From Phanerodontia chrysosporium (Eukaryota; Basidiomycota; Agaricomycetes; Polyporales; Phanerochaetaceae), in contig MJGA01000007.1 in NCBI GenBank assembly GCA_001910725.1, positions 1,240,001 to 1,304,000 on the forward strand: a DNA stretch of 64,000 nucleotides. Reading direction: 5' to 3'. Position numbers and translations under genes: made by a program. Within the stretch, counting starts at the first letter, position 1. Each line of letters opens with the position of its first letter. The notes beneath the pieces are model-generated. The model did not search any database. It worked only from the letters and a program-made list of their open reading frames with translations, and was not told the DNA's origin. This document shows, one piece after another, positions 12,100-63,478 of the stretch.

Positions 12100-12795
12100 A
12101 GATTACAGATTCCACTTTGGAATTGGCAGCTGGTTGGACTTGAACTCTGGAGCCGATCATGATATCCTGTAACCATTTATTCTTGCTATGTTGCTTAGCT
12201 TATGCCTTCTAATCCCCCTTGTACTGCAAGCATTCAATGTATCCAGTCCTCTTTCAAGTGTAATTCAGTGTTCTTGTCAACTGTGTACATATTGTGGAAG
12301 TTCTGTTGTTAGTCACTGTGAGATGCCATCAGCATATTGTAAGATATAGCCCATGCAAATTGGGGATTGAATATGCATGTAACCATTTTGTAACTGACCA
12401 CTAGTAGTTTTTCATGGATTGAGATTTGTAATTACTCATTACTCATTTTTTAAACACCTTGCACGAAAGTAAGCCATGCATTTTTTACTTGTCATCTTAT
12501 TCTCTTCCTGCTTCTGCTCTCCTCTCCATCCTTATATACTGTCTTGCGCTTTCAAACCTGTACAGATCCTTATGACTTTGTCCCTCATGTGGTCTCCAGC
12601 ATGCTCTTCGGTTTATATTGCCATGCTCCATCGCGACAAATTCTTAGTTTTGCCTCCATCGGAGCTCAATGTTCCTGTGTCCCTTTACCTCCATCTGAGC
12701 TTGACGTCCCTGGGTCCATTTGCATCTGTCGGAGCTCAATGTCCCTGTGTCCTCTCACGTTATCACTGCTCACGAGTGGGTACATATTTTTTCTT
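12100..12795. other. Gene/transposon boundary, no gene
   Basis: The 3' flank of CAF40 turns AT-rich and loses coding character. Apart from the 35-bp tandem repeat at 12656-12760, no feature was recognised. The first dispersed repeat begins at 12796. Confidence 0.5.
12656..12760. repeat. Three 35-bp tandem repeat units
   Basis: Three imperfect, directly adjacent 35-bp units at 12656, 12691 and 12726. Each has the core (C/T)GGAGCT(C/T) or TGAGCTTGA, then CCTGTGTCC or CCTGGGTCC. The unit length is constant, as in a small minisatellite. Confidence 0.7.
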
Positions 12796-15139
12796 ATTAC
12801 GATTTCTGAATGTAAATGAAGAATCGTTCTTTTGGCGACTGGGCACTTTGGAGCTTTTGTACACCGTTACGAACTTTGGCTGAAGGTGTGGGAAGTTTTG
12901 TTGTAGTCCCATTAGATTTGGCCATCAATCTGAGGTTAGGGTTTATTACAAACTTTGAAGTAAATCTTTCTCGATTTTTATAGCCTTTTATACTGTACTT
13001 CAGAATATGCCCTTGTATATAGCACTACTATAGACCTTGGGCTACCTATTGGTATCTATGAAAACATGCTATGCCTTGAGCTCACTGTTCACTAGCATGC
13101 TCAATGTTGAGCGCTTACATCAGGCTTTACATAGATCCAATCTCAAATGTAGCCACAATAGCATATATAGTATATCAATGGATAGAGCTTGATGAGGAGA
13201 TTCAGAATATGTATATATGTTGAGGGTTATTAGGTGTATTGAGGTGGATGGCAAGGGATTAAGGTAGCAGATGTACCTATATTAAGCGCTCACTTAGGTG
13301 AACTGCAGTGATCATCTTGCTCTAGATGTTCTAGACCAAATACACACACATGTATATTATGTATACATCCATTTGCAGCTCATAAAGCATGTATAGAGCT
13401 GTACATATAACGTAAAGCTACTATTCTCTGTAAATATAATTGTTTATGGTGTTTTTCCACAAATTAGTCTGTTCTACTATATAGAGGGTATATTTGACCT
13501 GAGGGAATACTTGATATACAGCACACATACCGCGTGAGTATACATGAATATATTGAGCAATTGCCATGCATTGTAAAGAGACCTACAAATATAACATCGA
13601 CTTATCAAAGAATATTCACTGTGGGCCTTACCTGACATACATGACATGTATGTCTACATATATGTCTGTAGCCACAATATGGTGAAGTCCACTAGAATAT
13701 ATGTAGCAATATATCATATGAAATGATGAAGGTATAGATATATTACCTTTAGAAGCAGATCAAAGTGAAGATTGCCATATTGGGAAGGGCCATCAGTTTA
13801 CAGGGGTTAATGGCGGGTGCATGGCACTATATGTATACGATAACGATTATATGCGCATTTTCCGTCGATTTATAGGGCTATATACCACGCTCCAAAGAGC
13901 TTACAGTAATAGCTCTACTTTGAGCCAGGATACCTGCTGAGTCATCAGTGTTGTGTGTGCTAGCCTTGGCCTTCAGCCGACAGACATGTGGGCTGTCCAC
14001 GTGGCTTTCCAGGCCACATGGACGAAGTGCGCTGTGGGTCCAAAGGGCCCCATTCCTGAAAACAAAGAAAAATAACGAAATATATTTATTTTCAGGCCTG
14101 ACTTGATGTCCCTTCATGGTACAGAGCCCCCACAGGGCTCAAACATGTATATATACACTATGTAGAGCATTTGTATACACTGGATGCATGCTGTGCACCC
14201 TGGATGAGCTTCCAGAGTGGGGAAAAGCGAAAATAGAGGAGGTAGTGAAGATTGAGCTAGAAAATAATGTTTCGGCCGAAAAACCACCTAAGCGCTGGTG
14301 TGTAAAATCGTTTCACGTACGTCAAAACACCTAGGACACCACCGATGTGTCTTTACGTACGTGAAACGATTTGACTAAGCACTGCCATTAGTTGGGGTCC
14401 TTTCTGGAGTATCTCTGCCTTAGTACACACAGGGGTGCGCTATAAATCCCGATAAAATGCGCAAGTAATCCGCGGCCGTGTATTCCATTGGGATACATTT
14501 TGCTCGTACCTGCCCAGAAAGGCAACACGGCGCGATGGCTCGATTTCTACTTCTAAAATCGAAATAGATTAAGTAGCATCCTCAACTCTATCAGTGGCTT
14601 CTGGATGGTGTACATATATGGAAAAGAATGTCTGATATAGTGCCAAACTTGGTATAAACTGTAAAGCAAACTCTTATGGCAGGAAAGGCCCTATAATGCT
14701 TAATATCATGTGAAATTGGATATTTATTCTCTTCTTTGTATATATAGGCCTAGGGTTGTATATACAGAGTATGGCTGGTATCTGCATAGTATGTATATAT
14801 GGCTGCTGTACTATAGCACTGACTGTAGCAATTTTGGCAGAATAGAGGCTGTGAATAAAGCTTAATCTATTTATTTCACAGTTCTCGATAAATATATTTG
14901 TATGGCCTCACCAAGGAGGGGCCCTTTCAGGATATAATTGTTCATGATAGCAGCCATCCATGCATGCATGCTATATTATACCTGGGAATATACATAGCCT
15001 TGCAAGGGTGAGCTAGCTACATTTTCCATCAGAGAAGCTTTTAACAGATAATTATATTACTTGTACATGATATCATATTTTATAAGGGGTGTTAGAGTGC
15101 AGTGGATGTATGGACATGCAATAGACTATAGATGTCCAT
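12796..15139 (+). repeat. Dispersed 2.3 kb repeat, copy A
   Basis: Starts at ATTACGATTTCTGAATGTAA and runs to the Copia LTR at 15140. It matches copy C (47537-49881) along its whole length at high identity, and copy B (36789-34933) in inverted orientation over the first 1.86 kb. AT-rich with many TATA/ATGTAT palindromes. It encodes a 72-codon ORF (14116-14334) present in all three copies but resembling no known family. Copy A carries variants not shared by B and C, so it is the outlier. The nature of the repeat is unknown: a non-autonomous transposon or part of a segmental duplication. Confidence 0.8.
14306..14371. repeat. Perfect 17-bp inverted repeat (hairpin) in copy A
   Basis: Left arm 14306-14322 and right arm 14355-14371 are exact reverse complements (AATCGTTTCACGTACGT), with a 32-nt loop. 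The same place in copies B and C keeps the left arm but has mutated right arms. Confidence 0.85.
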
Positions 15140-15476
15140 TGTAGGAGGTGAACTCGATTACAGGAGTGCTTTGAAACACACTGGTGGTAGTGGGTGAGCA
15201 ACTGAATGTATTGGAGCAAAGGGAGAACTATTGACCTGGTGGTAGTAGGTGAGCAACTGAAGAGCTCAGGGCACTACCCCCACAATTTATATCCTACAGA
15301 GGGGATCAAAGCGAACTAAAAACAAAGGAACGAAAGTGAAGGGGACAAAGGAAAAAAGTACAAAGGGATTTCTTTGTCAGTGGCCCATGAGGGCCACTGC
15401 ACCTGGTCAATGCACTGGGCCACTGAGGGCCGCTGAGTGCAGAGGGGTGATTGCATCACAAAGAACACAACTAACA
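15140..15476 (-). mobile_element. Ty1/Copia LTR, long form (3' LTR)
   Basis: On the minus strand it starts TGTTAGTTGTG and ends CTACA. Copia RNase H lies immediately to its right, so this is the 3' LTR of a minus-strand element. The long form has an internal duplication of the CTGGTGGTAGTGGGTGAGCA block. Copy C has the same LTR at the same junction. Confidence 0.8.
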
Positions 15477-16199
15477 GTCCCCCCCTGAAGGCAGCATGTC
15501 TCTGCACAGGGCTTTCCCCACATCAAGCACATCTACTGCAAGCCCATGAGCCAGCGAAGTGCAGCAACCTTGGCTACAGACAAAGTCTTGGTCAGAATGT
15601 CTACAATTATCAGGTCAGTCTGGACATACTTTGGAGAGATCTGGCCATTCTCTATCACATCACGCAGCCAGTAGAGGTGCAGCTGCATGTGCTTCAATCA
15701 CTCAAAATGCTCAGAATTCTTGGCCACTGCAATAGCAGAGTTGTTATTCATGTAGAGTGTCAATGGAGAGTGAGAGAGGTTGTAACCAAACTGTGAGCAG
15801 GTTGCACATCCAGGCAATGTCCTAGCCAGCCTGATTGGCAGCCATGTACTTCGCCTCTGTGGTAGCCTGCACCACCACAGTCTGCAGCTTACTACTCCAG
15901 TCCACAGCACTAATGCCCATTATAATGACATAAGCACCAGATGAGCACAGTGCGTCAGAATTCCTAGCATAGTCAGCATCCGAGTCGGTCACAAAGAGCT
16001 CCTTTGTTGCAGTAGGACCATAGGTGAGCTGCAAGTCCAGGGAGCCCTTGAAATACTGGAACAGGTGCTTAACTGCCTGCTAGTGGGCCTGGCCAGGGTT
16101 CGCATTGAAGTGAGCTAGCACAGAGACTGCATAGGCAATACCAGGATGAGTGCAGGTGGCAAGGTACATGAGGCAGCCAACAGCACTGACGTAGAGAAG
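15477..16199 (-). pseudogene. Copia pol fragment (RT tail and RNase H)
   Basis: Minus-strand frames with stops and shifts encode Copia RNase H signatures: YLATCTHPGIAYAVSVLAHF, then QLTYGPTATKELFVTDSDAD, VVQATTEAKYMAANQAGWDI, LYMNNNSAIAVAKNSEHFEW and KHMQLHLYWLRDVIENGQIS. It ends at the LTR on the left and is cut on the right by the G2 LTR at 16200. It is a dead piece and probably part of the same duplicated unit as 50223-52497. Confidence 0.85.
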
Positions 16200-18259: not shown

Positions 18260-18264
18260 AATAA

Positions 18265-18864
18265 TGTCACAGTTTTTCGTCTCAACCCTTAGGGTTAGGG
18301 GCAGCAGGTGACAGAAGCGATTACTCCGAACTGTGACATGCAGAAGCGCTGGAGTGACAGCCCTAGGCTCGGGGCTGGTCACGTGATACGGCAGTCACGT
18401 GATGCGCACACGTGCGGTATTCCAGGGTCACATGGTCGAAGGTCTAGAAGCAGGCAAGGGTCTGGAAGCGCCGAGACACTCCGGAATGGACTAGAAAGTC
18501 CTGGAGGTCTCTGGACAGGTCCGGACAGTGCTGAAACGTTCTGGAGGTTTCTGGGACATCGTAGGAACATTTAGGAACGTGTAGGAGAATGTAGGAATGC
18601 CTGTAGGGCACTAGCCAATAGCGTAGTAGGTATTAGATAGCTAGGACCCTGAACACCGGTCCCTGGGGACCTGGTGCACATGTATATAAACCCTGAGAGC
18701 TGGGGATGCCTCCCCAGCTTCAATCTCATCGCATCTCACCTCTCTAGTCTCTATACCTCGTCTTCAAGCTTGGCTACACCCTTTGTAGTCCAAGTAAACC
18801 TTTGCCAGTGAGTATTGCTGGTTGGTTTGGTGTATAGGCGCTAGGGCAGCGCATTTTTGTGATA
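18265..18864 (+). repeat. G1 5' LTR
   Basis: Runs from TGTCACAG to TTGTGATA, with short imperfect inverted ends. Contains a TATA box at 18683. Other copies of this LTR family in the window: 37236-37834, 39431-40031 and 52498-53096, all much more mutated. Confidence 0.97.
18683..18690 (+). promoter_or_regulatory. TATA box of G1 LTR
   Basis: TATATAAA lies 33 nt before AGCTTCAATCT at 18716, the sequence complementary to the primer-binding site and therefore the predicted 5' end of the transcript. The spacing fits normal TATA-directed initiation. Confidence 0.7.
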
Positions 18865-18866
18865 GA

Positions 18867-18877
18867 AGATTGAAGCT
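18867..18877 (+). other. Probable self-priming primer-binding site of G1
   Basis: AGATTGAAGCT starts two nt after the LTR end. It is the exact reverse complement of LTR bases 18716-18726, which lie where transcription should start. This is the Tf1-type self-priming arrangement. No tRNA-like TGG start is seen here. Confidence 0.75.
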
Positions 18878-19170
18878 AGTCAACCTACTCCACCTTTGGT
18901 GGCCTAGGTTATTGCTTTGGGTTCTGGGGGCTTGTTTGAACAAGTGCTTTTGCGCTTTGTTCAGTTTTCTGCCGATCCACAGGCGTAAGTGGGCACTATA
19001 GTACCTTTTTAGGTACAGACAGGGGAACGTGGTGCAATCCACCTCAGAGGGCTTTGCCTGCGGACGAGTAACCCCTGTTGTAGTGCTGGACTAAGGGTGT
19101 AATACCCTGTCCAACCAGTTTTAGCTGTGTGGCGTGGAAACCCACAGTAATACCCCTTTCTCTTCGTTGA

Positions 19171-19986
19171 GGGTTGGCTGGCAGGAAAGCCTTGCGCTTT
19201 GCCTGTGTGGAGAAGTTTTCTGGCTTGTGTACACAGGCTGACCCGTGTTTACTAGTGCCTAAAGCTGCTAGGAACCGTTTTGTCCTTGCTAAGGACGAGA
19301 GCTCTGGCAAACCCTTGCTTGAGCGCATCAAGATCTCGAACCTTCACCGCTTCAAAGACGTTGGAAAGCCGCGCCCTGCGTACAAACCTCGCACTACACC
19401 CTACACCCCTGTCCCTGGTCGTCGTGAAAGGCTTGCTCGTGAAGCAGACTTGAACGACTTCAAGCACCAGCTTCAGCTCGAAGACTATCGCAACGAACAG
19501 CGCAAGCGCCGCCTACTCGATCGCATCGCGAACGCCCCTCCCCCTCTCCCCCTCATTGAGCGTATTGAACCTCCCCCTACCCCCCCTATCGAAGTCAAAC
19601 CCATTCCCAAGGACCTTCGCTTTCACACCAACACTCAGGTCCATCAGCTGCGCGACTACGGACGAAAGTTCAACGGCGCCCTTAACCACTTGGGTCCGTT
19701 CTTTCAGAAGCTAGACGAGCAGCGTTTTCGAGTTGGGTTGACTGAACACGAGCTCTACATCTTGGGCTTGTTCAAGGAGAGGTTCGACAACATTCGCAAA
19801 CACCTTCAGACCATCGTCGAGACGAAGGAGTACACCACGAGGGAGTGGAAGAAGATTTCGAGGGATTTGAAGAAGGCAGGCGCACATAGCTTCGCTGAGC
19901 TCAAGCCACGCTTCGCTGAGCATTGCAGGGAGCTGATTCAGGAGTTGGGTGAAGATTGGTTGTTTTTGGAGAAGAACCTCGATTAG
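19171..19986 (+). CDS. G1 ORF1: methionine-free protein of unknown function upstream of gag
   Basis: Open frame of about 271 codons, from after the TGA at 19168 to the stop at 19984-19986, without one ATG; the first possible start codons are TTG. Composition is basic at the N-terminus, with a charged helical stretch (LAREADLNDFKHQLQLEDYR, NEQRKRRLLDRI), a Pro-rich hinge (ANAPPPLPLIERIEPPPTPP) and a helical C-terminal half (FFQKLDEQRFRVGLTEHELY, LGLFKERFDNIRKHLQTIVE, YTTREWKKISRDLKKAG). No database family recognised. The frame is intact and has sensible coding composition, so it is probably translated, from a non-AUG codon or by another unusual route. The gag ATG follows 29 nt after the stop, in the -1 frame. 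G3 has a counterpart at 63375-62602. Confidence 0.7.
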   Translation, partial: GLAGRKALRFACVEKFSGLCTQADPCLLVPKAARNRFVLAKDESSGKPLLERIKISNLHRFKDVGKPRPAYKPRTTPYTPVPGRRERLAREADLNDFKHQLQLEDYRNEQRKRRLLDRIANAPPPLPLIERIEPPPTPPIEVKPIPKDLRFHTNTQVHQLRDYGRKFNGALNHLGPFFQKLDEQRFRVGLTEHELYILGLFKERFDNIRKHLQTIVETKEYTTREWKKISRDLKKAGAHSFAELKPRFAEHCRELIQELGEDWLFLEKNLD

Positions 19987-20015
19987 TTTTTGTATCTGCG
20001 CGTTTTTGAATCAAG

Positions 20016-21596
20016 ATGTCGCTCAATTCAAATCCTGTTGACTTTGGTTTACGTTCTGCTTCGAGTTCAAGTGGCATGGACCCTTGGGGAGCATTAGAAC
20101 TTGGCTCTATGGCTGAGGGAGGCCCTACCCCAGTTTTGGCCACTGCGCCGCTTTCGACCTCTTACAAAGAGTACAGCCAGTCATGGGTACAAGCCGCTCA
20201 GGAAGGACTGACTCCTGGCGACTTTAAGGCCCTCGTTGACAGCCTGGGTAACTGGGTAAAGGCTGAAATAGCTCAAGTAAGGTCGGAAATGGGTTCAGAA
20301 GTCCTTCGCTTGAAGGAAGCCCTTCGCAAACGCAAAACCGAGGCCAAAACACTTCAGGAGCAGATAGACACTCTTGAGCAGACTAGACAGCACTTGTCTG
20401 CGCAGATAGCAGAGGCTCAGAACCAAAATCGCATTTTGCAGAATGCTATGCAGATGCTGAAGCAGGAGAACGAGAGCTTGAAAGTGTTGATTCAGCAAGG
20501 CACTAGTGGAGGCAACATTGGGTTGTCTCAGTCTTTGTTCCCTACCATGAAGGAGCCTGACACCTTTAATGGTGATAAGGCTAGCAAGCTGGATGACTGG
20601 CTCGAGTCGATGGCACTCTGGTTGCGCCACCGTGGCGTAATGGACGATGAAAAGAAGATAGAGACGGCAATGACTTACCTGCGAGGTTCAGCAAAGAAGG
20701 TCATGCAAGAGTACTTCGACAAGGTGGCAGACTCAAAGCCCCTTGGTACTTGGACCAACTTTGTGAACGAACTCCAGAAAGGATTCCAACAGACCGACAA
20801 GAAGGACAGGGCAAGGGCAGAGTTTGAGCAGCTTGTCAGCAAGAAAGGGACGAACGAGAACACTTTCAACGAGTTTGCCGCTCGTTTCCGTTCACTGGCT
20901 CGCCAAACTGACTTCTCCAACGAGGAACTGTTGGTCAAAGCCTATGCCCATACCCCTCGTGCCGCCGCCGATGTACTGGCAGCCCGTGGTCGCGCTCAGT
21001 GGGCTACGACCTGGGATGGTTGGTTGAAGGATGTTCAGGAGATTCTGCAGGATCAACGTCTCTTGACGGGCACCGTACTCTCTGGACAGCCTCAGTCGTC
21101 GAAAGACCCTGACGCTATGGATGTCGACGCCTTGAAGAAGGGCTCAGCCCAGGGCAAAGGCAAGACAGCCAAAGTTCAGAAGGTTGCCATGTCGTTCGAG
21201 GAGGCGAAGAAGAAAGGCTGCTGCGCTCAGTGTGGAGGCAAAGGCCACATCGCCAAGGAGTGTCCATCGAAGAAGAACAACTCAGGTTCTTCGACGTCGT
21301 CGAGTAAAACCACCAATGCACCGGTGGCCAGTTCGTCAAAGGCTTCGTGTTCAAAGGGAAAGGAGAAGGATAAGGGCTCTCGCCACACGAAGAACAGTGT
21401 GCGCGAGGTGTACGCCAGCGACTCGGAGAGATTCCAGGAGGTAGCCTCTGACGAGGAGTCGAGCTCGGATAGCTCAGAAGAAGAAGATACCCCCAAGACC
21501 AAGCAAAAGAAGAAGTCGTCTTCGAAGGAGAAGGCGCAGAAGATTAACCGCGTGGTGTTCTCAGACGATGAGGATTTTCTGCAGGGGCCGATGTAG
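20016..21596 (+). CDS. gag: G1 gag (capsid-nucleocapsid)
   Basis: 526 codons from ATG 20016, the first ATG after the predicted transcription start. The N-terminal third has a coiled coil (about residues 85-165, for example LRLKEALRKRKTEAKTLQEQ). It is followed by the Ty3/Gypsy capsid region: FNGDKASKLDDWLESMALWL, MTYLRGSAKKVMQEYFD, NTFNEFAARFRSLARQTDFS. One CCHC zinc knuckle, CAQCGGKGHIAKEC, is present at about residues 408-421. The C-terminus is Ser/Lys/Glu-rich and ends QKINRVVFSDDEDFLQGPM. It forms the virus-like particle and binds the RNA. The pol frame opens 25 nt before the gag stop, in the -1 frame. Confidence 0.95.
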   Translation: MSLNSNPVDFGLRSASSSSGMDPWGALELGSMAEGGPTPVLATAPLSTSYKEYSQSWVQAAQEGLTPGDFKALVDSLGNWVKAEIAQVRSEMGSEVLRLKEALRKRKTEAKTLQEQIDTLEQTRQHLSAQIAEAQNQNRILQNAMQMLKQENESLKVLIQQGTSGGNIGLSQSLFPTMKEPDTFNGDKASKLDDWLESMALWLRHRGVMDDEKKIETAMTYLRGSAKKVMQEYFDKVADSKPLGTWTNFVNELQKGFQQTDKKDRARAEFEQLVSKKGTNENTFNEFAARFRSLARQTDFSNEELLVKAYAHTPRAAADVLAARGRAQWATTWDGWLKDVQEILQDQRLLTGTVLSGQPQSSKDPDAMDVDALKKGSAQGKGKTAKVQKVAMSFEEAKKKGCCAQCGGKGHIAKECPSKKNNSGSSTSSSKTTNAPVASSSKASCSKGKEKDKGSRHTKNSVREVYASDSERFQEVASDEESSSDSSEEEDTPKTKQKKKSSSKEKAQKINRVVFSDDEDFLQGPM

Positions 21597-24500
21597 AGTC
21601 TGCGATATCTGGTCCGTTTTTAGATTTCCTTTACCCTCCCGACTCAGTAGAATGTATTAGATCAGTTTTGGAATCGAGAAAAGTCTCTAGTTTACCCTCT
21701 AAATCGAGCTTTATCGTTCCAGTAACTTTGAGTCAGGGTAAGGAAATCAGAGTGCAGACTACCGCGCTGGTTGATTCGGGGGCCTATGCTGTGTTCATTA
21801 GCCATCGCTTCGTCAAGAAGCATAAGCTGAAGACGAACCAGCTGGCCAGGGAGATACGCGTTTACAACGCAGATGGCTCCAGGAACAAGTGTGGCAGTAT
21901 TGAGGAGTATGCTTGGCTCGACGTAGCCGTAGGGGACCATGTCTCCAGACAAGCATGCCTCATTACAGATCTGGGTGGAAAGGACATGTTCCTCGGCTTT
22001 AGCTACTTGAAGAAGCATAATCCCGAGATAGATTGGGATAAGGGCGAGTGGAAGTACTCCAGATGCTCAGATTCTTGTCGCTTTACCAGCCACAAGGCTC
22101 AAGTAGCACAAGCAGAGCTCGAAGAACCTATGGATGAGGACTTCGAGGAGGAAGAAGAGGAGCCTTGGCTTCAGTGGGTCGACCCTTCCACCCCAGATGG
22201 CCGCGTTTTGGCAGTAACCTGCCGGAAGATCGCAGCGATATGCAGTATTCGTTCGCTGGAGGGAATCGAGGGCTGGGAGCAGCTTGTCCCTGCACAGTAT
22301 CAGGACTATGGGGACGTGTTTTCGAAGCGTGCAAGCGAACGGCTACCCGTACGAAAGCCTTACGACCACGCTGTCGAGTTTATCGATGGAGCTACCCTAC
22401 CTCGACCAGCTCGTAATTACTCACTGTCGCCAGAAGAGAGGAATTCTCTGGACGAGTGGATTCAGGAGAATCTCGCCAAGGGATACATCAGACCGAGTAA
22501 ATCCCCGCTGGCAGCACCAGTCTTTTTCGTGAAGAAGAAGGACGGTTCATTGCGCTTGGTGCAAGACTACAGGAAGCTGAACGAAGTTGTCAAGAAAGAC
22601 CGCTTCCCTATACCCAAGATCTCAGACCTTATAGATCGACTATCTAAGGCCAGTATATACACCAAGATTGACCTTAGATGGGGGTATAACAACGTCAGAA
22701 TCAAGGAAGGAGACGAGTGGAAGCTGGCCTTCATCACACCTTTCGGTTTATATGAACCTACAGTAATGTTCTTCGGCCTCAGCAATGCACCAGCAACCTT
22801 TCAGCGCATGATGAACCATATTCTCGATGACCTAATTCGAGAAGGGCATGTCATGGTCTACCTAGACGACATTCTCATCTTCACGAATGACTTGGACCAC
22901 CATCGGCGATTAGTTCGCGAGGTATTGCAGCGGCTACGCGACAATGACCTGTTCGCTAAGCCAGAGAAATGCTTCTTCGAGACGGATAGCATTGAATACC
23001 TCAGAATGATCATCAGCAAGGGGTCGGTTCAGATGGATCCATCGAAGGTAGATGGCGTTTTATCTTGGCCCATACCCAAGAGGGTCAAAGATGTCCAGGC
23101 TTTCCTGGGTTTTGCCAACTTCTACCGACGGTTTATTCGAGACTTCGGCAAGATTGTTCGCCCATTGTCAGAGCTTACCCGCAAAGGCAAAGAGTGGGAA
23201 TGGGGGCCTGAGCAGCAGGATGCTTTCGATACGCTCAAAAGAGCGTTCACTACTGCGCCTATTCTCAAGATTCCAGACGACGAGCACCCTTTTAGGCTCG
23301 AATGCGATTCGTCAGACTTTGCTACGGGGGCTGTACTTGAGCAACTGGGCGAGGATGGCCTTTGGCACCCTGTCGCGTTTTATTCCAAGGCGCTAGGCGT
23401 ACACGAGCGCAACTACGAGATATACGACAAGGAGATGCTAGCCATCATCCGCGCGCTGAAGGAATGGTGCCACCACTTGGAGGGACACCCTCTACCATTC
23501 GACATATGGTCAGATCACCAGAATTTGACCTATTTCCGCAAGGCACAAGACTTGACGCGACGTCAAGCACGTTGGAGTCTTTTCCTCACACGTTTCCACT
23601 TCAAGTTGGAGCACAAGCCTGGAAAGACGATGAAGCGGGCTGATCCAATGTCCAGGAGGCCAGATCATGAATTGGGGGTGGATTGCGACAACCGTGAAAA
23701 AGTCCTTTTGAAGCCAGAATATTTCGCGATTCGAGCCATGCAACCAACCCATTCATCGATAGTGGACGATAGCAAACTGCTAGAAAGGATCAGAAAAGCC
23801 CTGCTGGACGACAAAGTCACCAAGTCGTACAAAGACCTGATGTTGAAAGGACCAAGAGAGTTCGGGAAGGACTTAGCGGAATGGCACCTCGAGGACGGGC
23901 TACTACTGCACCGAGGCAAGGTGTATGTGCCCAAGGACGACAAGATTAGGGCAGATCTACTCAAGTTACACCACGACTTCCCTGGGGCTGGACACCCTGG
24001 ACGATGGAAGACGTTGGAGTTGCTGTCGCGCAACTACTGGTGGCCAGGAATGTCAGTTTACGTCAAGAAGTACGTCGCAGGTTGCGAAGTCTGTCAGTCG
24101 CATAAAAATGTCAACCAGAAGCCTGCTGGCCTGCTACAGCCGAACGAGGTTCCGTCGGAACCCTGGGAGATAATCTCATGCGATATGATCACAGACTTGC
24201 CTGAGTCGGACGGTTACAACGCTATCTTCGTAGTCGTTTGCCGCTTAACAAAGCGAGCACATTTTCTCCCCATCACCAAGGAGTTTTCAGCCAAGGATCT
24301 GGGAAATTTGCTCTATGAGCGTGTTTGGCCTTTGCACGGTCTACCCAGACAGATCATTTCGGATAGAGGAACGCAGTTCGCTGCGAAACTCTTCCAGGAA
24401 TGGTGCAGACTCTTGGGGATCAAGTCAGCAATGACTACTGCGTTTCACCCTCAGGCAGACGGTCAGACTGAGCGAGTTAATCAGTCATTGGAGCAGTATC

Positions 24501-25729
24501 TGCGCTGCTACACAAACTTCAGGCAGGACGACTGGGCGTACCTTTTGCCCTCTGCCGAGTTTGCGTACAACAACCAGGCGCATGAAAGCACCAAGAACTC
24601 GCCATTCTTTGTCGAATATGGCCATCATCCACGCATGTTCCCAGAGCAGGACCGTGTTACAAGGTTGTCAGAACTGGACGACTGGACAAAGCTTAGACAA
24701 GAGGCCCAAGATCAGGCGAAAGCCGCGCTCGTGCTGGCTGCAGAGCGAATGAAGTGGTATTACGACCAGGGTAAATCAGAACCCTTGTTCAAGGTCGGAG
24801 ACCGTGTTTGGCTTGACGCAAAGGATCTGAACCTTCGGGTTCCCTCCAAGAAACTGGCACCAAAGCGAGTAGGCCCTTACGAGATCGTAGAGCAGCTGGG
24901 ACCGGTTACCTTCAAGCTGAAGTTACCAGCCCATGTGAAGATTCACCCGGCCTTCCACGCAAGCAAGCTCACGAAGCACGTCGAGGATGAGGTCGCCAAT
25001 CGCACGCGCAAACCCCTACCACCCATTCGTGTGGGTGATGACGAGGAGTACGAGGTCGAGCAGATCGTAGATGCACAGCCAGACTCTAAAGGCCGTGTTA
25101 TGTACCGAGTACGGTGGAGAGGCTATGACGAGCATAGCGACACATGGGAATACTTGCCCAATCTCAAGCACGCTATGGCGAAGGTCAAACAATTCCACAA
25201 GAAATACCCAGATGCGCCGAAGGCAATTTCCCTTCTGCAACGCCACCACGACGAGGAGGATGAGTTTTTCGTGCGCGAACTCGCGCTACTCCAATCTTGG
25301 GGAGCAGACGACCAGTTCGAGGTCGAGCTCATGAACAAGGACGCAAAACTCCCCTCACGTGGCTCGCCAGAAAGCGCAGGGTTGGATCTTTTCATCACGG
25401 AAGACCTTACGCTCAAACCCCATGATCGCAAGCTAGCGTCAACTGGCCTTCGAATGTGTACTCCACCAGGTACCTACGCTCGAGTCACACCACGGAGTGG
25501 CCTCAGCCTCAGAGGCATCGACATAGGAGCAGGCGTTATTGACCGAGATTATCGAGGAGAGCTCAAAATTCTACTCATCAACAACTCGCCCGACACCTTT
25601 ACATTCCACAAGGGTGATCGTGTCGCTCAACTCGTGCTCGAAAAAATATCCTATGCCGAACCAACTCCGGTTTCTCGCCTCGACTCAACCATTCGCAGCA
25701 GCGATGGTTTTGGCTCCACTGGTATTTAG
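21572..25729 (+). CDS. pol: G1 pol: protease, RT, RNase H, integrase, chromodomain, dUTPase
   Basis: Frame opens at 21572, overlapping gag in the -1 frame. No ATG occurs before the protease active site ([11 protein letters not shown] at about 21770; the first ATG is near 21986), so pol should be made as a gag-pol fusion. Domains: RT with YLDDILIF (22859); RNase H from about 23280 ([24 protein letters not shown]); integrase zinc finger [14 protein letters not shown] ... CEVCQ; catalytic [25 protein letters not shown] (D,D35E). The chromodomain [11 protein letters not shown] ... [20 protein letters not shown] is at about 25041-25200. A complete trimeric-type dUTPase follows at about 25330-25729: [43 protein letters not shown] and [11 protein letters not shown]. 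No internal stop. One oddity is YLRMIIS where most relatives have YLGMIIS. Confidence 0.95.
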   Translation, partial: [1385 protein letters not shown]

Positions 25730-25750: not shown

Positions 25751-25764
25751 AGAATTGGGGGTAA
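25751..25764 (+). other. G1 polypurine tract
   Basis: AGAATTGGGGGTAA directly precedes the 3' LTR and would prime plus-strand DNA synthesis. Confidence 0.8.
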
Positions 25765-26364
25765 TGTCACAGTTTTTCGTCTCAACCCTTAGGGTTAGGG
25801 GCAGCAGGTGACAGAAGCGATTACTCCGAACTGTGACATGCAGAAGCGCTGGAGTGACAGCCCTAGGCTCGGGGCTGGTCACGTGATACGGCGGTCACGT
25901 GATGCGCACACGTGCGGTATTCCAGGGTCACATGGTCGAAGGTCTAGAAGCAGGCAAGGGTCTGGAAGCGCCGAGACACTCCGGAATGGACTAGAAAGTC
26001 CTGGAGGTCTCTGGACAGGTCCGGACAGTGCTGAAACGTTCTGGAGGTTTCTGGGACATCGTAGGAACATTTAGGAACGTGTAGGAGAATGTAGGAATGC
26101 CTGTAGGGCACTAGCCAATAGCGTAGTAGGTATTAGATAGCTAGGACCCTGAACACCGGTCCCTGGGGACCTGGTGCACATGTATATAAACCCTGAGAGC
26201 TGGGGATGCCTCCCCAGCTTCAATCTCATCGCATCTCACCTCTCTAGTCTCTATACCTCGTCTTCAAGCTTGGCTACACCCTTTGTAGTCCAAGTAAACC
26301 TTTGCCAGTGAGTATTGCTGGTTGGTTTGGTGTATAGGCGCTAGGGCAGCGCATTTTTGTGATA
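25765..26364 (+). repeat. G1 3' LTR
   Basis: 600 bp, exactly 7500 bp downstream of the 5' LTR and differing from it at a single base. Followed by the target duplication AATAA. Confidence 0.97.
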
Positions 26365-34932: not shown

Positions 34933-36789
34933 TAAGTTTGGCACTATATCAGGCATTCTTTTCCATATATGTACACCATCCAGAAGCCACTGATAGAGTT
35001 GAGGATGCTACTTAATCTATTTCGATTTTAGAAGTAGAAATCGAGCCATCGCGCCGTGTTGCCTTTCTGGGCAGGTACGAGCAAAATGTATCCCAATGGG
35101 ATACACAGTCGCGGATTATTTGCGCGTTTTATCGGGATTTATAGCGCACCCCTGAGTGTACTAAGACACAGATACTCCAGAAAAGACCCCAACTAATGGT
35201 AGTGCTTAGTCATATCGTTTCACATATGTAAAGACACATTGGTGGTGTCCTAGGTGTTTTTACGTACGTGAAACGATTTTACATACCAGCGCTCAGGTGG
35301 TTTTTCAGCTGAAACATTATTTTCTAGCTCAATCTTCACCACCTGCTCTATTTTCGCTTTTCCCCACCCTGGAAGCTCATCCAAGGTGCACAGCATGCAT
35401 CCAGTGTATACAAATGCTCTACATAGTGTATATATACATGTTTGAGCCCTGTGGGGGCTCTGTACCATGAAGGGACATCAAGTTAGGCCTGAAAATGAAT
35501 ATATTTCGTTATTTTCCTCTATTTTCAAGAATTGGGCCCTTTGGACCCACAGCGCACTTCGTCCATGTGGCCTGGAAAGCCACGTGGGCAGCTCCACATG
35601 CCTGTCGGCCGAAGGCCAAGGCTAGCACACACAACACTGATGACTCAGTAGGTATTCTGGCTTAAAGTAGAGCTATTACTGTAAGCTCTTTGGGGCGTGG
35701 TATATAGCCCTATAAATCGATGGAAAATGCGCATATAATCGTCATCGTATATATATAGTGCCATGCACTCGCCGTTAACCCCTGTAAACTAATCGCGCTT
35801 CCCAATATGGCAATCTTCACTTTGATCTGCTTCTAAAGGTAATATCTCTATACCTTCATCATTCCACATGATATATTGCTACATATATTCTAGTGGACTT
35901 CACCATGTTGTGGCTACAGACATATATGTACACATACATGTCATGTATGTCAGGTAAGGCCCACAGTGAATATTCTTTGATAAGTTGATGTTATATTTGT
36001 AGCTCTCTTTACAATGCATGACAATTGCTCAATATATTCATGTATACTCACACAGTATGTGTGCTGTATATCAAGTATTCCCTCAGGTCAAACATATTCT
36101 CTATATAGTAGAACAGGCTAATTCGCAGAAAAATACCATAAATAATCATATTTACAGAGAATACTAGCTTTACATTATATGTACAGCTCTATACATGCTT
36201 CATAAACTGCAAATAGATGTATACATAATATACATGTGTGTGTATTTGACCTAGAACACCTAGAGCAAGATGATCACTGCAGTTCACCTAAGTGAGCACT
36301 TAATATAGGTACATCTGCTACTTTGATCCCTTGCCATCCACCTCAATACACCTAAGAACCCTCAGTATATATACATATTCTGAACCCCCTCATCAAGCTC
36401 TATCCATTGGTATACTATACATGCTATTGTGGCTACATTTGAGATTGGACCTTTGTAAAGCCTGATGTAAGTGCTCAACATTGAGCACGCTGATGAACAG
36501 TGAACTCAAGGCATAGCATGTTTTCATAGATACCGATAGGTAGCCCAAGATATATAGTCATGCTATATACAAGAGCATGTTCTGAAGCACAGTATAAAAG
36601 GTTATATAAATCAAGAAAGATTTACTTCAAAGTTTGTAATGAACCCTAACCTTAGATTGATGGCCAAATCTAATGGGACTACAACAAAAGTTCCCACACC
36701 TTCGGCCAAAGTTTGTAACGGTGTATAAAAGCTTCAAAATGTCCAGTCGCCAAAAGAATGATTCTTCATTGACATTTAGAAATTGTAAC
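34933..36789 (-). repeat. Dispersed 2.3 kb repeat, copy B (inverted, truncated)
   Basis: Reverse complement of copies A and C. It covers the start (36789) through the hairpin to the CCAAACTT motif, then stops; about 490 bp of the A/C unit are missing. It shares many variants with C against A (for example the GTTAACGGCGAGTGCATGG and TGAGCGCTGGTATG forms), so B and C are the closest pair. Confidence 0.85.
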
Positions 36790-36959: not shown

Positions 36960-38660
36960 GCAAAGCTGAAGTAGTGAAGTAGTACTGGCAATACTTAAAC
37001 AGTAATTCTATTGATCTAGCATGAAAGCAGACATTCAGAGCCATGTGGAATTATACCATCAATGCCAAGTACAGAGTGTAAAAAAGGCAGAAGTATCTAT
37101 TATTGTATATTACCATTCACTCTATTTTTCAAGATATACATGTATGTAATGTTTATGCCTCAAATTCAGAGCTACAAATGCATAGCAGTAGCAAGAGATG
37201 ACCTATCAGAAGCAGTGAAGGACAAGCTATAAGACTGTCACAGTTTTTCGTCTCAACTCTTAGAGTTAGGGGCAACAGGTGACAGAAGCGATTACTACGA
37301 ACTGTGACATGCAGAAGTGCTGAAGTGACAGCCCTAGGCTCGGGTTTGTTATGTAATACAGTGATCACGTGATGTGCACACGTGTGGTATTCCAGGGTCA
37401 CATGGTCGAAGGTCTGGAAGCAGACAAGGGTCTGGAAGCACTGAGACACTCTGAAATGGACTAGAAAGTCCTGGAGGTCTCTGGACAAGTCTGGACAGTG
37501 CTGGAACATTCTGGAGGTTTCTAGGACATTGTAAGAATATTTAGAAATGTGTAGGAGAATGTAGAAATGCCCGTAGGATACTAGCCAATAGCGTAGTAGG
37601 TATTAGATAGTTAGAACCCTGAACACCAGTCCCTGGGGACCTGGTGCACATGTATATAAACTCTGAGGGCTGGGGGTGGCTCCCCAGCTTCAATCTCATC
37701 ACATATCACCTCTCTAATCTCTATACCTCATTTTCAAGCTTGGCTACACCCTTTGTGATCCAAGTAAACCTTTGCCAGTGAGTATTGCTGGTTGGTTTGG
37801 TGTATAGGTGCTAGGGCAGCGCATTTTTGTGATAAAGACAGCCCAACTCTAAGTCTATGGTCAAGTTCCTATGGAAGCAAGTATTTTGCAGATACAGTGT
37901 AGTAGGACAGCTAATCATGGACAACAGATCATAAGTTGAGAAGGCATTTACAGAGCTCATGGATAGATTTGGAATATCCCAGATGAAAATTTCAGCTTAC
38001 AACTCCAAGGTAAACAGAGTAGTAAAGCGAGGGCACTTTATTATCAGGAAATATATTCTCAAAGCCTGTGATGGTAAAGTACACCAGTGACCAGCACATA
38101 TATCATATGCTTTTTTTTTGCAAACAGAGTTACTGTTAGGCATCAAACAGAATTCTTGCCCCACTATTTGCTTTACAGTGTACATCCAGTACTATCTTTT
38201 GATCTCACAGAAGCAACCATTATAGTAAACGGATTCAAGTGGAGAATGATCTCAGAAGACCTGTTAGTGTTATGAATAAGGCAGCTTCAAGAGTGATCTG
38301 AAGACTTTGCAAACACAGCAGCAGTTCTAAAGAAACATTGCTTTCAAGCCAAAGAGCCGTTTGAAAGGAGGTATAAGACACAGTTAGTTAAGAATTCTTA
38401 CCCACTTGGAATGCTAGTATTGATAAGAAACAAGGCTAAGAAGAATTCGAAGGAAAAGTACCATGATAGATACCAAGGACTCTATGAGGTATTTAAATGA
38501 ACAAGGAATGGTGCCTACATTCTGCAAGGACTGGATGGTATTATTTGGCAACAAGCAATGGCAGCATTCAGAATACTACTCTATATATCCAGATTAGATG
38601 AATCCCTGCCTAAGCTTGCAAAAGACTTGAGAGATCAAGACTTAAATACGAACTCCTAGT
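36960..38660 (+). pseudogene. Gypsy integrase relic (lineage G4), split by a solo LTR
   Basis: Degenerate plus-strand frames of a Gypsy integrase distinct from G1-G3. Left part: ADIQSHVELYHQCQVQSVKK, then a decayed start of the core (CIAVARDDLSEAV). After the LTR the core resumes with IMDNRS (second Asp), FTELMDRFGISQMKISAYNS and VKRGHFIIRKYILKACDGKV. The tail includes HQTEFLPHYLLYSVHPVLSF, IRNKAKKNSKEKYHDRYQGL and AAFRILLYISRLDESLPKLA. Many stops and shifts are present. The solo LTR at 37236-37834 lies between the two halves. Confidence 0.8.
37236..37834 (+). mobile_element. Solo LTR of the G1 family with target duplication
   Basis: 599 bp from TGTCACAG to TTGTGATA, flanked by a perfect 5-bp duplication AAGAC (37231-37235 and 37835-37839). 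No internal sequence, so it is the product of LTR-LTR recombination. Diverged from the young G1 LTR mostly by C-to-T and G-to-A changes. Confidence 0.93.
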
Positions 38661-39430
38661 TCTCAGGAAGTTCAGCAAACTATAGCACAGACTTAGAAGA
38701 AGATCAAGACTCAGAGTTAGCATAATTAGCATATAAGGAGCCAAAATCATCCTTATATTCATTCAGTTCGTAAGTGTGTTGAACTGAGGACAGTTCATTT
38801 TTCAAGCAACCCCTAAATATCATGCGCCAGCCCTGTTTGCCACAAAATTGTCATGGCTTAAGTTCCCAATTAGGTAGTTAGCTTATATAATCTCATAGCT
38901 CACCATTTTTGTAGCTTCATCTTGGATTGTCTTTAATGAACTAACACCAGTCTCGGGTGTGATTGCCCTCTGTAGCCTTGTTTTCATGTTATAGATCACA
39001 TTCTCGATCTTGCAGGGCAGCTCAGCCCTTGACAAGGATAGGGAAGAATTGAGCCTTATTCAGGCATAGCAGAATAAACATAATGAAGCGGAGCTTAGTA
39101 TAGAAGAATGTATAAAGACATGGAAATGTACAGTAAAGTGTGGGAGTTCAAAGCAAGGGCATGAGAAGACAGAGACCCAAAAGGTAAGGTATGAAAAGAT
39201 GCAGCCATGTTAGGAACATTGTGGAAAAGATAGGCTATATTTAGGCGATGTGGGAAAGTAACTATCTATTTAGACCTTGAAAAGTGCCAAGCATCTCTGA
39301 AACTAGGGAAGAAACATGCAGAAGATCAGAGGAAAGTATGAAAAGTGATGGAATCTACTAAAAGAAAATTTAGAAAAAAGGTGGCAAGTGGAAAAGAAAA
39401 TAAAAAGGAGTTGCAGGAAGGAAGTAGAGT
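38661..39430. other. No gene recognised
   Basis: Follows the G4 integrase. Purine-rich towards the right end. Possibly the G4 3' untranslated region and LTR, but no second LTR copy was found to confirm this. Confidence 0.35.
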
Positions 39431-40031
39431 TATTACAAAAATGTGCTGCCCTAGCGCCTATACACCAAACCAATCAGCAATACTCACTGGCAAAGGTTTA
39501 CTTGGACCACAAAGGGTGTAGCCAAGCTTGAAGATAAGGTATAGAGGCTAGAGAGGTGAGACACGATGAGATTGAAGCTGGAGAGCCACTCCCAGCCCTC
39601 AGGGTTTATATATACATGTGCACCAGGTCCCCAGGGACTGGTGTTCAGGGTCCTAACTATCTAATACTTACTACGCTATTGGCTAGTACCCTACAGACAT
39701 TTTTATATTTTTCTACACATTTCCAAATGTTCCTACAATGTCCCAAAACCTTCTGGGACATTCTAGCACTGTTCTGACCTGTCCAAAGATCTTTAGGACT
39801 TTCTAGTCCATTGCGGAGTATCTTGGCACTTCCAGGCTCATGTCTACTTTTAGACCTTTCACCATGTGACCCTGGAATACCACACATGTGTACATCACAT
39901 GACCACTGTATCACATGACCAGTCCAAGCCTAGAGCTGTTACTTCAGTGCTTCTACATATCACAACTTGGAGTAATCACTTCTATCACCTGCTACCCCTA
40001 ACTCTAAGAGTTGAAACAGAAAACTGTGACA
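39431..40031 (-). mobile_element. Old solo LTR of the G1 family, minus orientation
   Basis: Reverse complement of the G1 LTR from TGTCACAG (40031) to TTGTAATA (39431), with its TATATA box and R region recognisable. Strongly mutated, and no matching target duplication was found. Confidence 0.85.
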
Positions 40032-40792
40032 CTCTATAGGAGTATAAAAGACCTCTCTCTTCTTCTCTCTCAATAGATCACTAGTTGAAAGCAGCCAGCT
40101 ATTTTCTCACCTCAACCACCACTATCTCTTGATATAGACTGTGTATTATCAGCTTAAGTGTGATTCAGTTCTAGTAAAGAATAGTTAGTCCACCAGTGCA
40201 CTTAGGCATTGTCACAGATGTGATGGCATAGCCCTATTTTTCGCTTATTTTTGGCTATTTTTCTTGATTAATCCAATGAGCAAGCAGCCCTCACATCGTC
40301 TGGAGTTCCAGATGCCCACAGTTAAGTGTCTGGTTACCCAGCACCAACATCCTAATAGCACATTACCCTCAAACACCAGTGCCCCTGCTGCATACCTCTG
40401 ACATTGCTCAAATCACTAACTTGTCTATAATTGGTTTTCCAGATCGCCGAGGAGACACTGTCATCTCTGGTGACTCTCCTTGCCGAAATATTCTGATCTG
40501 TCATTCTGCTGACACAGCCTCGGCCCACTGCAGTCTTGAACACAGCTAGCTGACATGACCTCATAACATAGTCCAACATAGCCTCACAGTGCAGCTGCGC
40601 ATTGCAGCCTCGTTGATTATGCCTTGCATTGCCCATCAGCTTATATAATTGTACAGCCTGCCCTAGAGTACTGGTGTATATAAGAGTAACTCTCCTCACT
40701 TCTGTTTGTAATCTCAATCTCTTAGTTAATATGGACAGGTAAGTCCTTACTTGTAACAGTGAAATAGTTTGCTAATGCAACTTGGTCAATAC

Positions 40793-47536: not shown

Positions 47537-49881
47537 ATTACGATTTCTGAATGTAAATGAAGAATCGTTCTTTTGGCGACTGGGCACTTTGGAGCTTTTG
47601 TACACCGTTACAAACTTTGGCCGAAGGTGTGGGAACTTTTGTTGTAGTCCCATTAGATTTGGCCATCAATCTGAGGTTAGGGTTCATTACAAACTTTGAA
47701 GTAAATCTTTCTTGATTTATATAACCTTTTATACTGTGCTTCAGAACATGCTCTTGTATATAGCATGACTATATATCTTGGGCTACCTATCGGTATCTAT
47801 GAAAACATGCTATGCCTTGAGTTCACTGTTCATCAGCGTGCTCAATGTTGAGCACTTACATCAGGCTTTACAAAGGTCCAATCTCAAATGTAGCCACAAT
47901 AGCATGTATAGTATACCAATGGATAGAGCTTGATGAGGGGGTTCAGAATATGTATATATACTGAGGGTTCTTAGGTGTATTGAGGTGGATGGCAAGGGAT
48001 CAAAGTAGCAGATGTACCTATATTAAGTGCTCACTTAGGTGAACTGCAGTGATCATCTTGCTCTAGGTGTTCTAGGTCAAATACACACACATGTATATTA
48101 TGTATACATCTATTTGCAGTTTATGAAGCATGTATAGAGCTGTACATATAATGTAAAGCTAGTATTCTCTGTAAATATGATTATTTATGGTATTTTTCTG
48201 CGAATTAGCCTGTTCTACTATATAGAGAATATGTTTGACCTGAGGGAATACTTGATATACAGCACACATACTGTGTGAGTATACATGAATATATTGAGCA
48301 ATTGTCATGCATTGTAAAGAGAGCTACAAATATAACATCAACTTATCAAAGAATATTCACTGTGGGCCTTACCTGACATACATGACATGTATGTGTACAT
48401 ATATGTCTGTAGCCACAACATGGTGAAGTCCACTAGAATATATGTAGCAATATATCATGTGGAATGATGAAGGTATAGAGATATTACCTTTAGAAGCAGA
48501 TCAAAGTGAAGATTGCCATATTGGGAAGCGCGATTAGTTTACAGGGGTTAACGGCGAGTGCATGGCACTATATATATACGATGACGATTATATGCGCATT
48601 TTCCATCGATTTATAGGGCTATATACCACGCCCCAAAGAGCTTACAGTAATAGCTCTACTTTAAGCCAGAATACCTACTGAGTCATCAGTGTTGTGTGTG
48701 CTAGCCTTGGCCTTCGGCCGACAGGCATGTGGAGCTGCCCACGTGGCTTTCCAGGCCACATGGACGAAGTGCGCTGTGGGTCCAAAGGGCCCAATTCTTG
48801 AAAATAGAGGAAAATAACGAAATATATTCATTTTCAGGCCTAACTTGATGTCCCTTCATGGTACAGAGCCCCCACAGGGCTCAAACATGTATATATACAC
48901 TATGTAGAGCATTTGTATACACTGGATGCATGCTGTGCACCTTGGATGAGCTTCCAGGGTGGGGAAAAGCGAAAATAGAGCAGGTGGTGAAGATTGAGCT
49001 AGAAAATAATGTTTCAGCTGAAAAACCACCTGAGCGCTGGTATGTAAAATCGTTTCACGTACGTAAAAACACCTAGGACACCACCAATGTGTCTTTACAT
49101 ATGTGAAACGATATGACTAAGCACTACCATTAGTTGGGGTCTTTTCTGGAGTATCTGTGTCTTAGTACACTCAGGGGTGCGCTATAAATCCCGATAAAAC
49201 GCGCAAATAATCCGCGACTGTGTATCCCATTGGGATACATTTTGCTCGTACCTGCCCAGAAAGGCAACACGGCGCGATGGCTCGATTTCTACTTCTAAAA
49301 TCGAAATAGATTAAGTAGCATCCTCAACTCTATCAGTGGCTTCTGGATGGTGTACATATATGGAAAAGAATGTCTGATATAGTGCCAAACTTTGTATAAA
49401 CTGTAAAGCAAACTGTTATGGCAGGAAAGGCTCTATAATGCTCAATATCTTGTGAAATTGGATATTTATTCTATTATTTGTATATATAGGCCTAGAGCTG
49501 TATATACAGAGTATGGCTGCCATCTGCATAGTATGTATATATGGCTGCTGTACCATAGCACTGACTTTAGCAATTCTGGCAGAATAGAGGCTGTGGATGA
49601 AGCTTAATCTATTTATTTCGCAGTTTTCAATAAATATATTTGTAAAGCCTCACCAAGGAGGGGCCCTTTCAGGATATAATTGTTCATGATAGCAGCCATG
49701 CATGCATGCATGCTATATTATACCTGGGAATATACATAGCCTTGCAAGGTTGAGCTAGCTACATTTTCCATCAGAGAAGCTTTTAACAGATAATTATATC
49801 ACTTGTACATGATATCATATTTTATAAGGGGTGTTAGAGTGCAGTGGATGTATGGACATGCAATAGACTATATATGTCCAT
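47537..49881 (+). repeat. Dispersed 2.3 kb repeat, copy C
   Basis: Starts ATTACGATTTCTGAATGTAA and ends at the Copia LTR at 49882, almost the same length as copy A (2345 against 2344 bp). Inverted relative to copy B, with which it shares most variants. Includes the 72-codon ORF at 48858-49076. Confidence 0.85.
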
Positions 49882-50222
49882 TGTAGGAGGTGAACTCGAT
49901 TACAGGAGTGCTTTGAAACACACTGGTGGTAGTGGGTGAGCAACTGAATGTATTGGAGCAAAGGGAGAACCATTGACCTGGTGGTAGTAGGTGAGCAGCT
50001 GAAGAGCTCAGGGCACTACCCCCACAATTTATATACTATCCTACAGAGGGGATCAAAGCGAACTAAGAACAAAGGAATGAAAGTGAAAGGGACAAAGGAA
50101 AAGAGTACAAGGGACTTCTTTGTCAGTGGCCCATGAGGGCCACTGCACCTAGTCAATCCACTGGGCCACTGAGTGCCGCTTAGTGCAGAGGGGTGGTTGC
50201 ATCACAAAGGACACAACTAATG
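49882..50222 (-). mobile_element. Copia LTR, long form (3' LTR) next to copy C
   Basis: 341 bp. Same junction with the 2.3 kb repeat as at 15140 (TGTCCAT before the LTR in both). Copia RNase H follows on the right. Confidence 0.8.
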
Positions 50223-52497: not shown

Positions 52498-53096
52498 TGT
52501 CACAGTTTTGCATCTCAACCCTTAGAGTTAGGGGCAGCAGGTGACAGAAGCGATTACTATGAACTGTGACATGCAGAAGTGCTGAAGTGACAGCTCTAGG
52601 CTTGGAGCTGGTCACGTGATATAGCGATCATGTGAGGCGCACACGTGCAGTATCCCAGAGTCACATGGTTGAAGGTCTAGAAGCAGACAAGGGTCTGAAA
52701 GCGCCGAGACACTCCAGAATGGACTAGAAAGTTCTGGAGGTCTCCGGACAGGTCCGGACAGTGCTGGAACGTTCTGGAGATTTCTGGGACATCGTAGAAA
52801 CATTTAGAAACGTGTAGGAGAATGTAGAAATGTCTATAGGGCACCAGCCAATAGTATAGTAGATATTAGATAGCTAGAACCCTAAACACCGGTCCCTGGG
52901 GACCTGGTGCACATGTATATAAACCCTGAGGGCTGGGGTGCCTCCCCAGCTTCAATCTCATCGCATTTCACCTCTTCAGTCTCTATACCTCGTCTTCAAG
53001 CTTGGCTACACCCTTTGTAGTCCAAGTAAACCTTTGCCAGTAAGTATTGCTGGTTAGTTTGGTGTATAGATGCCAGGGCAGCGCATTTTTGTGATA
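52498..53096 (+). mobile_element. G1-family solo LTR
   Basis: TGTCACAG to TTGTGATA, about 599 bp. Moderately mutated. The flanks GCCAG and GCGTG do not match, so the two sides may come from different insertions joined by recombination. Confidence 0.88.
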
Positions 53097-53211
53097 GCGT
53101 GACCAACGTGGTGAAAGCAGAGAATAGTGATTGGGGGATGTGTGGCCCTTGTGAAAGTGAGGTTGGGGATATTGTGGTGCAGTTAAAGTGCGGGGCTCAT
53201 TACATATCCAT

Positions 53212-63375: not shown

Positions 63376-63466
63376 CTACGACGTACTCGCTTTAATCGGA
63401 GGGAATAAACTTTTTTAAACGGTATTGGGGGGCGGTAGGGAAGGAATTGCCTAGGGCACCCAAGAG

Positions 63467-63476
63467 ATCTCGACCT
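63467..63476 (-). other. Probable self-priming primer-binding site of G3
   Basis: On the minus strand AGGTCGAGAT begins two nt after the 5' LTR end. It is the exact reverse complement of the LTR sequence ATCTCGACCT (minus strand, 63669-63660), which lies 34 nt after the start of the TATA box, where the transcript should begin. Confidence 0.72.
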
Positions 63477-63478
63477 AA

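Follow-up and report, generated by a model that had tools for sequence, protein, structure and literature searches.

The window analysed here is a 64,000-nt stretch of Phanerodontia chrysosporium DNA (contig MJGA01000007.1, positions 1,240,001 to 1,304,000), and it carries two LTR retrotransposons, G1 on the plus strand and a member of a second family (family 2) on the minus strand. Judged from sequence, both are chromodomain Ty3/gypsy elements with an additional open reading frame, ORF1, that lies downstream of the primer site and upstream of gag. Both are flanked by LTRs (offset 7500 in G1 and 7040 in family 2), pol of both elements encodes reverse transcriptase (RT), RNase H, integrase and chromodomain in this order, and their RT domains are 64% identical. 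The features are collected in Table 1, where a slash marks a candidate splice boundary.

Table 1. Features of the two elements, in window positions; RNA ends, introns and ORF1 starts are proposals from the sequence.
Element	Feature	Position	Strand	Remarks
G1	5' LTR	18262-18864	+	identity at offset 7500 starts at 18262; first mismatch 18865
G1	Inferred RNA 5' end, AGCTTCAATCT	18716-18726	+	11/11 complementary to 18867-18877
G1	Proposed alternative intron, GCCA/GTGAGT ... CTGAC (19238-19242) ... TTTACTAG/TG	18808-19255	+	spans the PBS
G1	Putative self-priming PBS, AGATTGAAGCT	18867-18877	+	2 nt past LTR end; pairing present in predicted fold
G1	ORF1 body	19256-19986	+	proposed start A18807 + TG19256-19257; stop 19984-19986
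G1	gag	20016-21596	+	first ATG past inferred RNA 5' end; Pfam Retrotrans_gag
G1	pol	21572-25729	+	protease, RT, RNase H, integrase, chromodomain, C-terminal dUTPase
G1	3' LTR	25762-26364	+	LTR pair at offset 7500
Family 2	Chromovirus	57171-63778	-	second such element in the window
Family 2	Proposed constitutive intron 1, GGACAG/GTAAGC ... GGACAG/CTG	63583-63641	-	hypervariable, 57-60 nt
Family 2	Putative self-priming PBS	63467-63476	-	10/10 complementary to RNA 5' end 63669-63660
Family 2	Proposed alternative intron 2, GCGA/GTACGT ... CTRA ... GCAG/TG	63327-63386	-	30/30 copies
Family 2	ORF1	62602-63326	-	proposed start A63387 + TG63326-63325
Family 2	Gag-frame coding stretch without ATG, upstream of the gag ATG	62174-62588	-	third-position excess of variable sites
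Family 2	gag from first ATG	60923-62173	-	Pfam search, ORF
Family 2	pol with chromodomain	57171-60965	-	Pfam search, ORF

The G1 transcription start was placed at 18716, since the TATA box TATATAAA (18683-18690) has its first T 33 nt before this position and the 11 nt of the putative RNA 5' end can pair with a site just after the LTR. The same two rules point to 63669 as the start of family 2 RNA. The predicted fold of the G1 leader from 18717 to 19255 is much more stable than those of 100 shuffles (z -5.5), and the self-priming pairing was found within the predicted fold. Three G1-related LTRs are also present in the window (37232-37835, 39430-40035 on the minus strand and 52495-53097), 63-94% alike by piece, as well as three copies of a roughly 2-3 kb repeat, one of them inverted (12790-15952, 34934-36788 and 47537-50704), which are 87-99% alike in aligned pieces.

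An earlier, sequence-only reading of this DNA had noted that the G1 leader has no ATG in any frame, and this was borne out. No ATG was found between 18716 and 20015; the next one is that of gag at 20016 and the nearest upstream one is at 18706. The run between these two, 1310 nt, is the longest ATG-free run of the plus strand in the window, followed by one of 348 nt. The estimate of about 20 ATGs by chance corresponds to the base-composition figure (18.9); dinucleotide shuffles of the leader contained 9.8 ± 2.6 ATGs (n = 2000). The family 2 leader spans 1496 nt without ATG from the inferred RNA start at 63669 to the gag ATG at 62173, and belongs to the minus strand's longest run without ATG (1589 nt; the next is 531 nt). 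No shuffle reached zero in either family (0/2000 each), and a chance origin of the ATG-free run is excluded.

Counting ATGs in other G1 copies, the check proposed together with that reading, gave a consistent picture. Of 50 G1 loci, six (L064, L072-L075 and L080) were excluded because their leader could not be aligned over its full length; the remaining 44, of which 14 were selected as diverged or damaged, include 35 leaders without ATG. Among the copies of both families examined, L042 stops short of gag. When ORF1 is open, 33 of 34 leaders are ATG-free; when it is broken, only 2 of 10 are, and the other eight have gained 1 to 7 ATGs each. Since most copies with broken ORF1 carry ATGs, these arise once selection lapses, and the proposal that ATGs were removed by selection is upheld, family 2 behaving likewise outside one intron-like stretch. 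The passage of scanning ribosomes to gag, put forward in the same reading, is a natural reason for excluding ATGs from the leader. In old G1 copies (L065-L071, L078 and L079), ATG gains recur at 19064, 19134, 19295 and nearby positions, and many of the changes are of the C-to-T or G-to-A type that cytosine decay predicts.

The depletion was also evaluated inside ORF1 with synonymous-codon shuffles. Out-of-frame ATGs expected were 1.8 and 2.4, with none seen (P 0.11 and 0.05). Among four control pieces from gag and pol, that from family 2 pol dips alike (7 seen, 10.9 expected, P 0.07) and the other three show no dip. Taken by itself, the out-of-frame depletion inside ORF1 is weak; the signal is carried by the near methionine-free ORF1 protein and by the non-coding leader.

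ORF1 of G1 is open from stop to stop between 19171 and 19986. The length of about 271 codons given before is correct for this open frame, but the part common to most relatives begins at codon 19255. The dN/dS ratio is 0.150 for G1 ORF1 (34 copies with open frame) and 0.075 for family 2 ORF1 (30 copies, including two frame-faulted ones, L040 and L051), where the other two frames of the same bases give 2.7 and 3.9. Variable sites of family 2 ORF1 are distributed as 43, 31 and 145 over the three codon positions. ORF1 is therefore a conserved gene under purifying selection by the second check named in advance, dN/dS between copies. That ORF1 might be a relic, with the ATG-free run due to chance or composition, is hardly credible: the weak synonymous-shuffle result is all that speaks for it, against the absence of zero-ATG shuffles, the rank of both runs as longest of their strand, the low dN/dS and the existence of ORF1 relatives at 35-83% identity.

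These relatives include database proteins from Obba rivulosa and Rhodonia (Postia) placenta, both Polyporales. The ORF1 profiles of G1 and family 2, built with no shared rows, align over 125 columns of the C-terminal half (probability 97, E 1e-10), and pairwise BLAST between both proteins is weak (8e-4). A first hhalign comparison of the two profiles (A1 against A2) was discarded as circular because A1 contained a family 2 row; the values given are from the rerun without it. ORF1 has no Pfam match. The AlphaFold models (mean pLDDT 69.8 and 68.0), with a helical C-terminal half, had no match in the PDB at E ≤ 0.001, and no relatives were found in viral contigs searched with one pattern.

N-termini of ORF1 relatives fall at or beside the residue of the conserved GTG codon. 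In the G1 clade, P0002-P0005 and the partial Obba entry P0007 begin at the residue of GTG 19255, and the Obba entry P0006 is two residues longer. All eight family 2 relatives with intact N-terminus begin at the residue matching GTG 63327, read MPKD and contain no internal Met. The initial M of database entries may be a GTG rendered as M by gene callers; the codon in the window DNA is GTG and the residue in the two Obba entries is Val. P0032 and P0033 differ, as their MPK, whose Met aligns with the G1 GTG, is internal to a longer frame, so a real ATG codon is present there. The match between P0033 and G1 extends 11 residues upstream of the GTG with 4 identities in 11, which was taken as chance, though a signal is possible.

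Methionine content separates the ORF1 clades. After the start, there are none in the 2167 residues counted for the family 2 clade (P0018 and P0019, without N-terminus, being counted in part) and three in the 1602 residues of the G1 clade, one each in P0005, P0006 and P0007. A third clade (P0008, P0009 and P0020-P0035) has 47 in 3901 residues, distributed over 18 of 18 proteins, with three internal ones in P0009. The contrast of this Met-rich clade with the two Met-poor ones indicates that ATG purging belongs to the latter and not to ORF1 generally. About 40 further genomic loci match P0009, mostly over the C-terminal half, and five of them align to P0033 across most of ORF1; they probably belong to a third, ORF1-bearing family of elements. 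Two examples of these loci are C67:26291-26626 and C53:47304-47639, and 36 of the loci lie in open frames 229-363 aa long.

Conservation of ORF1 sets in at a GTG in each family, and this GTG forms the second half of a candidate 3' splice site, CTRA...AG/TG CCN AAR. The acceptor regions, CTGACCCGTGTTTACTAG/TGCCTAAAG in G1 and CTAAGGCTTGCCTTCGCAG/TGCCGAAAG in family 2, each contain a branch-like CTRA, then AG and then TG. Upstream lie 5' splice sites preceded by A, namely TTTGCCA/GTGAGT at 18808 in G1 and AAAGCGA/GTACGT at 63386 in family 2. Joining the candidate exons in silico gave GCCATGCC for G1 and GCGATGCC for family 2, both with an AUG in frame with ORF1 and G at position -3, and the joined start reads ATG CCN AAR (Met-Pro-Lys) in each case.

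These signals are conserved. Among the G1 leaders, A/GTRAGT and CTGAC are kept in 44/44 and AG/TG in 42/44; the donor is present in 5/5 LTRs aligned from G1 and its relatives in the window, among them the three G1-related ones. All 30 family 2 copies have the three signals of intron 2, namely donor, branch-like motif and acceptor. Exact donor-acceptor pairs number 103 for family 2 and 81 for G1 in the genome. Among the 62 intron 2 matches listed, the length is 55-61 nt, one (C25) has no CTRA and three contain an ATG; in the 30 copies it is 60 or 61 nt. Variable sites of intron 2 show no codon phase (6, 7 and 7). The three signals coincided at the right place in 0.135% (G1) and 0.015% (family 2) of dinucleotide shuffles, while a donor of such form by itself occurred at some position in 39% and 13%. 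These percentages are a guide and not P values, as the motif definitions followed inspection of the sequence. Two traits are atypical. Intron 2 has CTAAG or CTGAA as its branch motif, which departs from the fungal CTRAY, and the 448 nt of the G1 intron are long for introns of such fungi.

From the position and conservation of these signals, we consider it probable that the ORF1 AUG is created by alternative splicing, intron-retaining RNA giving Gag-Pol and the genome. Splicing would join an exon whose last base is A to one that starts with TG CCN AAR, so that the AUG would be assembled at the junction. Intron-retaining RNA would have no AUG before gag, so that scanning ribosomes would make Gag(-Pol), and it would still contain the primer site. 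ORF1 and its leader would be free of ATG in every frame because the same bases are scanned in this RNA. The predicted local fold places the G1 5' splice site in a hairpin, which could hold splicing partial. We infer, then, that splicing occurs, that it is partial and that ORF1 and Gag are made from separate RNAs.

The earlier reading had proposed initiation of ORF1 at a near-cognate codon or by another unusual route, and had named as refuting an ATG spliced in frame with ORF1. An ATG split across a junction would be a special form of that case. A splice-made AUG is the better account, rather than a near-cognate start. The latter would take the form of GUG initiation at 19255 and 63327 on intron-retaining RNA, with most ribosomes leaking to gag. 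It is consistent with the conserved frame starting at GTG, with G at -3 in family 2 and with an ATG-free region downstream, which suits leaky scanning. Copies L058 and L059 of family 2 have just five open codons (GGT CCT TAC TTC GCA) ahead of the GTG and none is near-cognate, so in these copies the GTG is the sole near-cognate candidate up to the point where conservation begins. However, GUG is a poor start codon in eukaryotes, position -3 is C in G1, and the conserved A/GT donor, the CTRA and the A before the GTG would be left unexplained. We regard GUG initiation as unlikely.

A further point bearing on GUG initiation comes from the region ahead of family 2 gag, where the ATG-less stretch in the gag frame points to possible non-AUG initiation in such elements. 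The third-position excess there is strong from 62440 on and absent at 62560-62481. An N-terminally extended family 2 Gag is possible on this pattern, and a non-AUG event may precede the gag ATG. Within 62588-62174 of the minus strand, GTCGCTCTGGAT supplies a CTG in good context.

ORF1 could also be reached by internal ribosome entry or through a different splice or promoter, the AG/TG motif being incidental. The unusually good folding of the G1 leader would fit such a route, as would the further A/GT sites at 18944, 18989 and 19001 in G1 and at 63574 in family 2. But a structured leader equally suits packaging and self-priming, and the signals recur at the same codon in two families, so we rate these routes as quite improbable, below GUG initiation.

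Family 2 would also have an intron 1, proposed as constitutive. A CTRA motif is found in intron 1 of 24 of the 30 family 2 copies and in none of the other six. Thirteen of the 30 leaders lack ATG altogether, 14 have ATGs confined to intron 1, and three (L050, L053 and L060) carry one or more elsewhere. The 25 ATGs, borne by 17 copies, are unevenly distributed: intron 1 has 20 of them in 1783 nt, and the remaining leader has 5 in 42703 nt. Such a distribution agrees with a translated RNA that has lost intron 1 and a messenger for gag that still holds intron 2; the latter would have no AUG ahead of gag once intron 1 is gone.

Exact loss of intron 1 was seen in some LTRs (also noted for L083), with nine places among the matches listed at ≤1 mismatch. 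Two of these places, C2:164171 and C2:171113, are spaced as the two LTRs of one element, and C2:171113 was read. Exact loss was set aside as proof of splicing, because the 18-nt direct repeat at the intron ends permits a simple deletion with the same product. The intron-like stretch at 63659-63583 on the minus strand lies between these 18-nt repeats (CTTGGTCAATACGGACAG); its flanks vary little, and it resembles an inserted intron.

Reverse-transcribed copies of the spliced junction were searched for in the genome with up to 2 mismatches and none was found for either family; the two matches obtained for each at this threshold were rejected, being unrelated by their letters. Since the G1 intron takes out the primer site, spliced G1 RNA would be unable to prime its own reverse transcription. 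Spliced family 2 RNA would keep its primer site, and yet no spliced copy was found, which speaks either for poor packaging of this RNA or against splicing.

Taking the clades together, we lean, with some reserve, towards a splice-assembled start codon acting as a switch in a polypore retrotransposon lineage. Removal of the intron would create the accessory AUG; its retention would leave 1.3-1.5 kb free of AUG in a messenger for Gag-Pol that is also the genome. ATGs would have been purged in all frames from these leaders, while the sister clade has internal Met, and two or more of its members have an ordinary ATG. A retroelement has to obtain a genome and more than one protein from a single transcript, and if this proposal is true, the choice resides in the start codon itself. 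It would account for a 240-codon gene ahead of gag that does not block gag. ORF1 is of interest in itself as a conserved protein family without match in Pfam or, for its models, in the PDB, and the case is a caution for gene finders that require a contiguous ATG.

Several parts of this arrangement have counterparts in known systems. As in Tf1-type elements, the inferred RNA 5' end can pair with a site directly behind the 5' LTR (11/11 in G1 and 10/10 in family 2), but Tf1 has one ORF and no ORF1. Fungal chromoviruses share RT, RNase H, integrase and chromodomain with G1 and family 2, some have a dUTPase, and in a survey of fungal families the legend of Figure 3 names an additional ORF of unknown function (PMC2864245). 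This ORF could be ORF1; the available text does not locate it 5' of gag, nor does it mention missing ATGs or splicing. In the CERV of Cer1, an accessory protein is made from spliced mRNA, and Gag and Pol from unspliced RNA (PMC10309623); however, exons 1-3 are in the gag frame, and a start codon made at a junction is not described in the portion available. In BARE1, the protein made likewise depends on retention or removal of an intron, but the splice creates a stop after gag and no start codon, as far as the accessible part of the report goes (PMC3735527). Plant LTR elements have extra ORFs, some upstream of gag-pol, but the sections at hand describe no ATG-free leader or split start codon (PMC7264820).

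A literature search by titles and abstract openings, in which subscription journals were thinly covered, found neither a splice-made start codon in an LTR element nor an ATG-free gag leader. The former is not described in the available text of PMC7826247, PMC7264820, PMC3735527, PMC10309623 and PMC2864245, and a term search of PMC3248453 gave no match. On the text available from these sources, accessory ORFs and spliced messengers are already known in LTR elements, and the splice-made start codon would be the new part.
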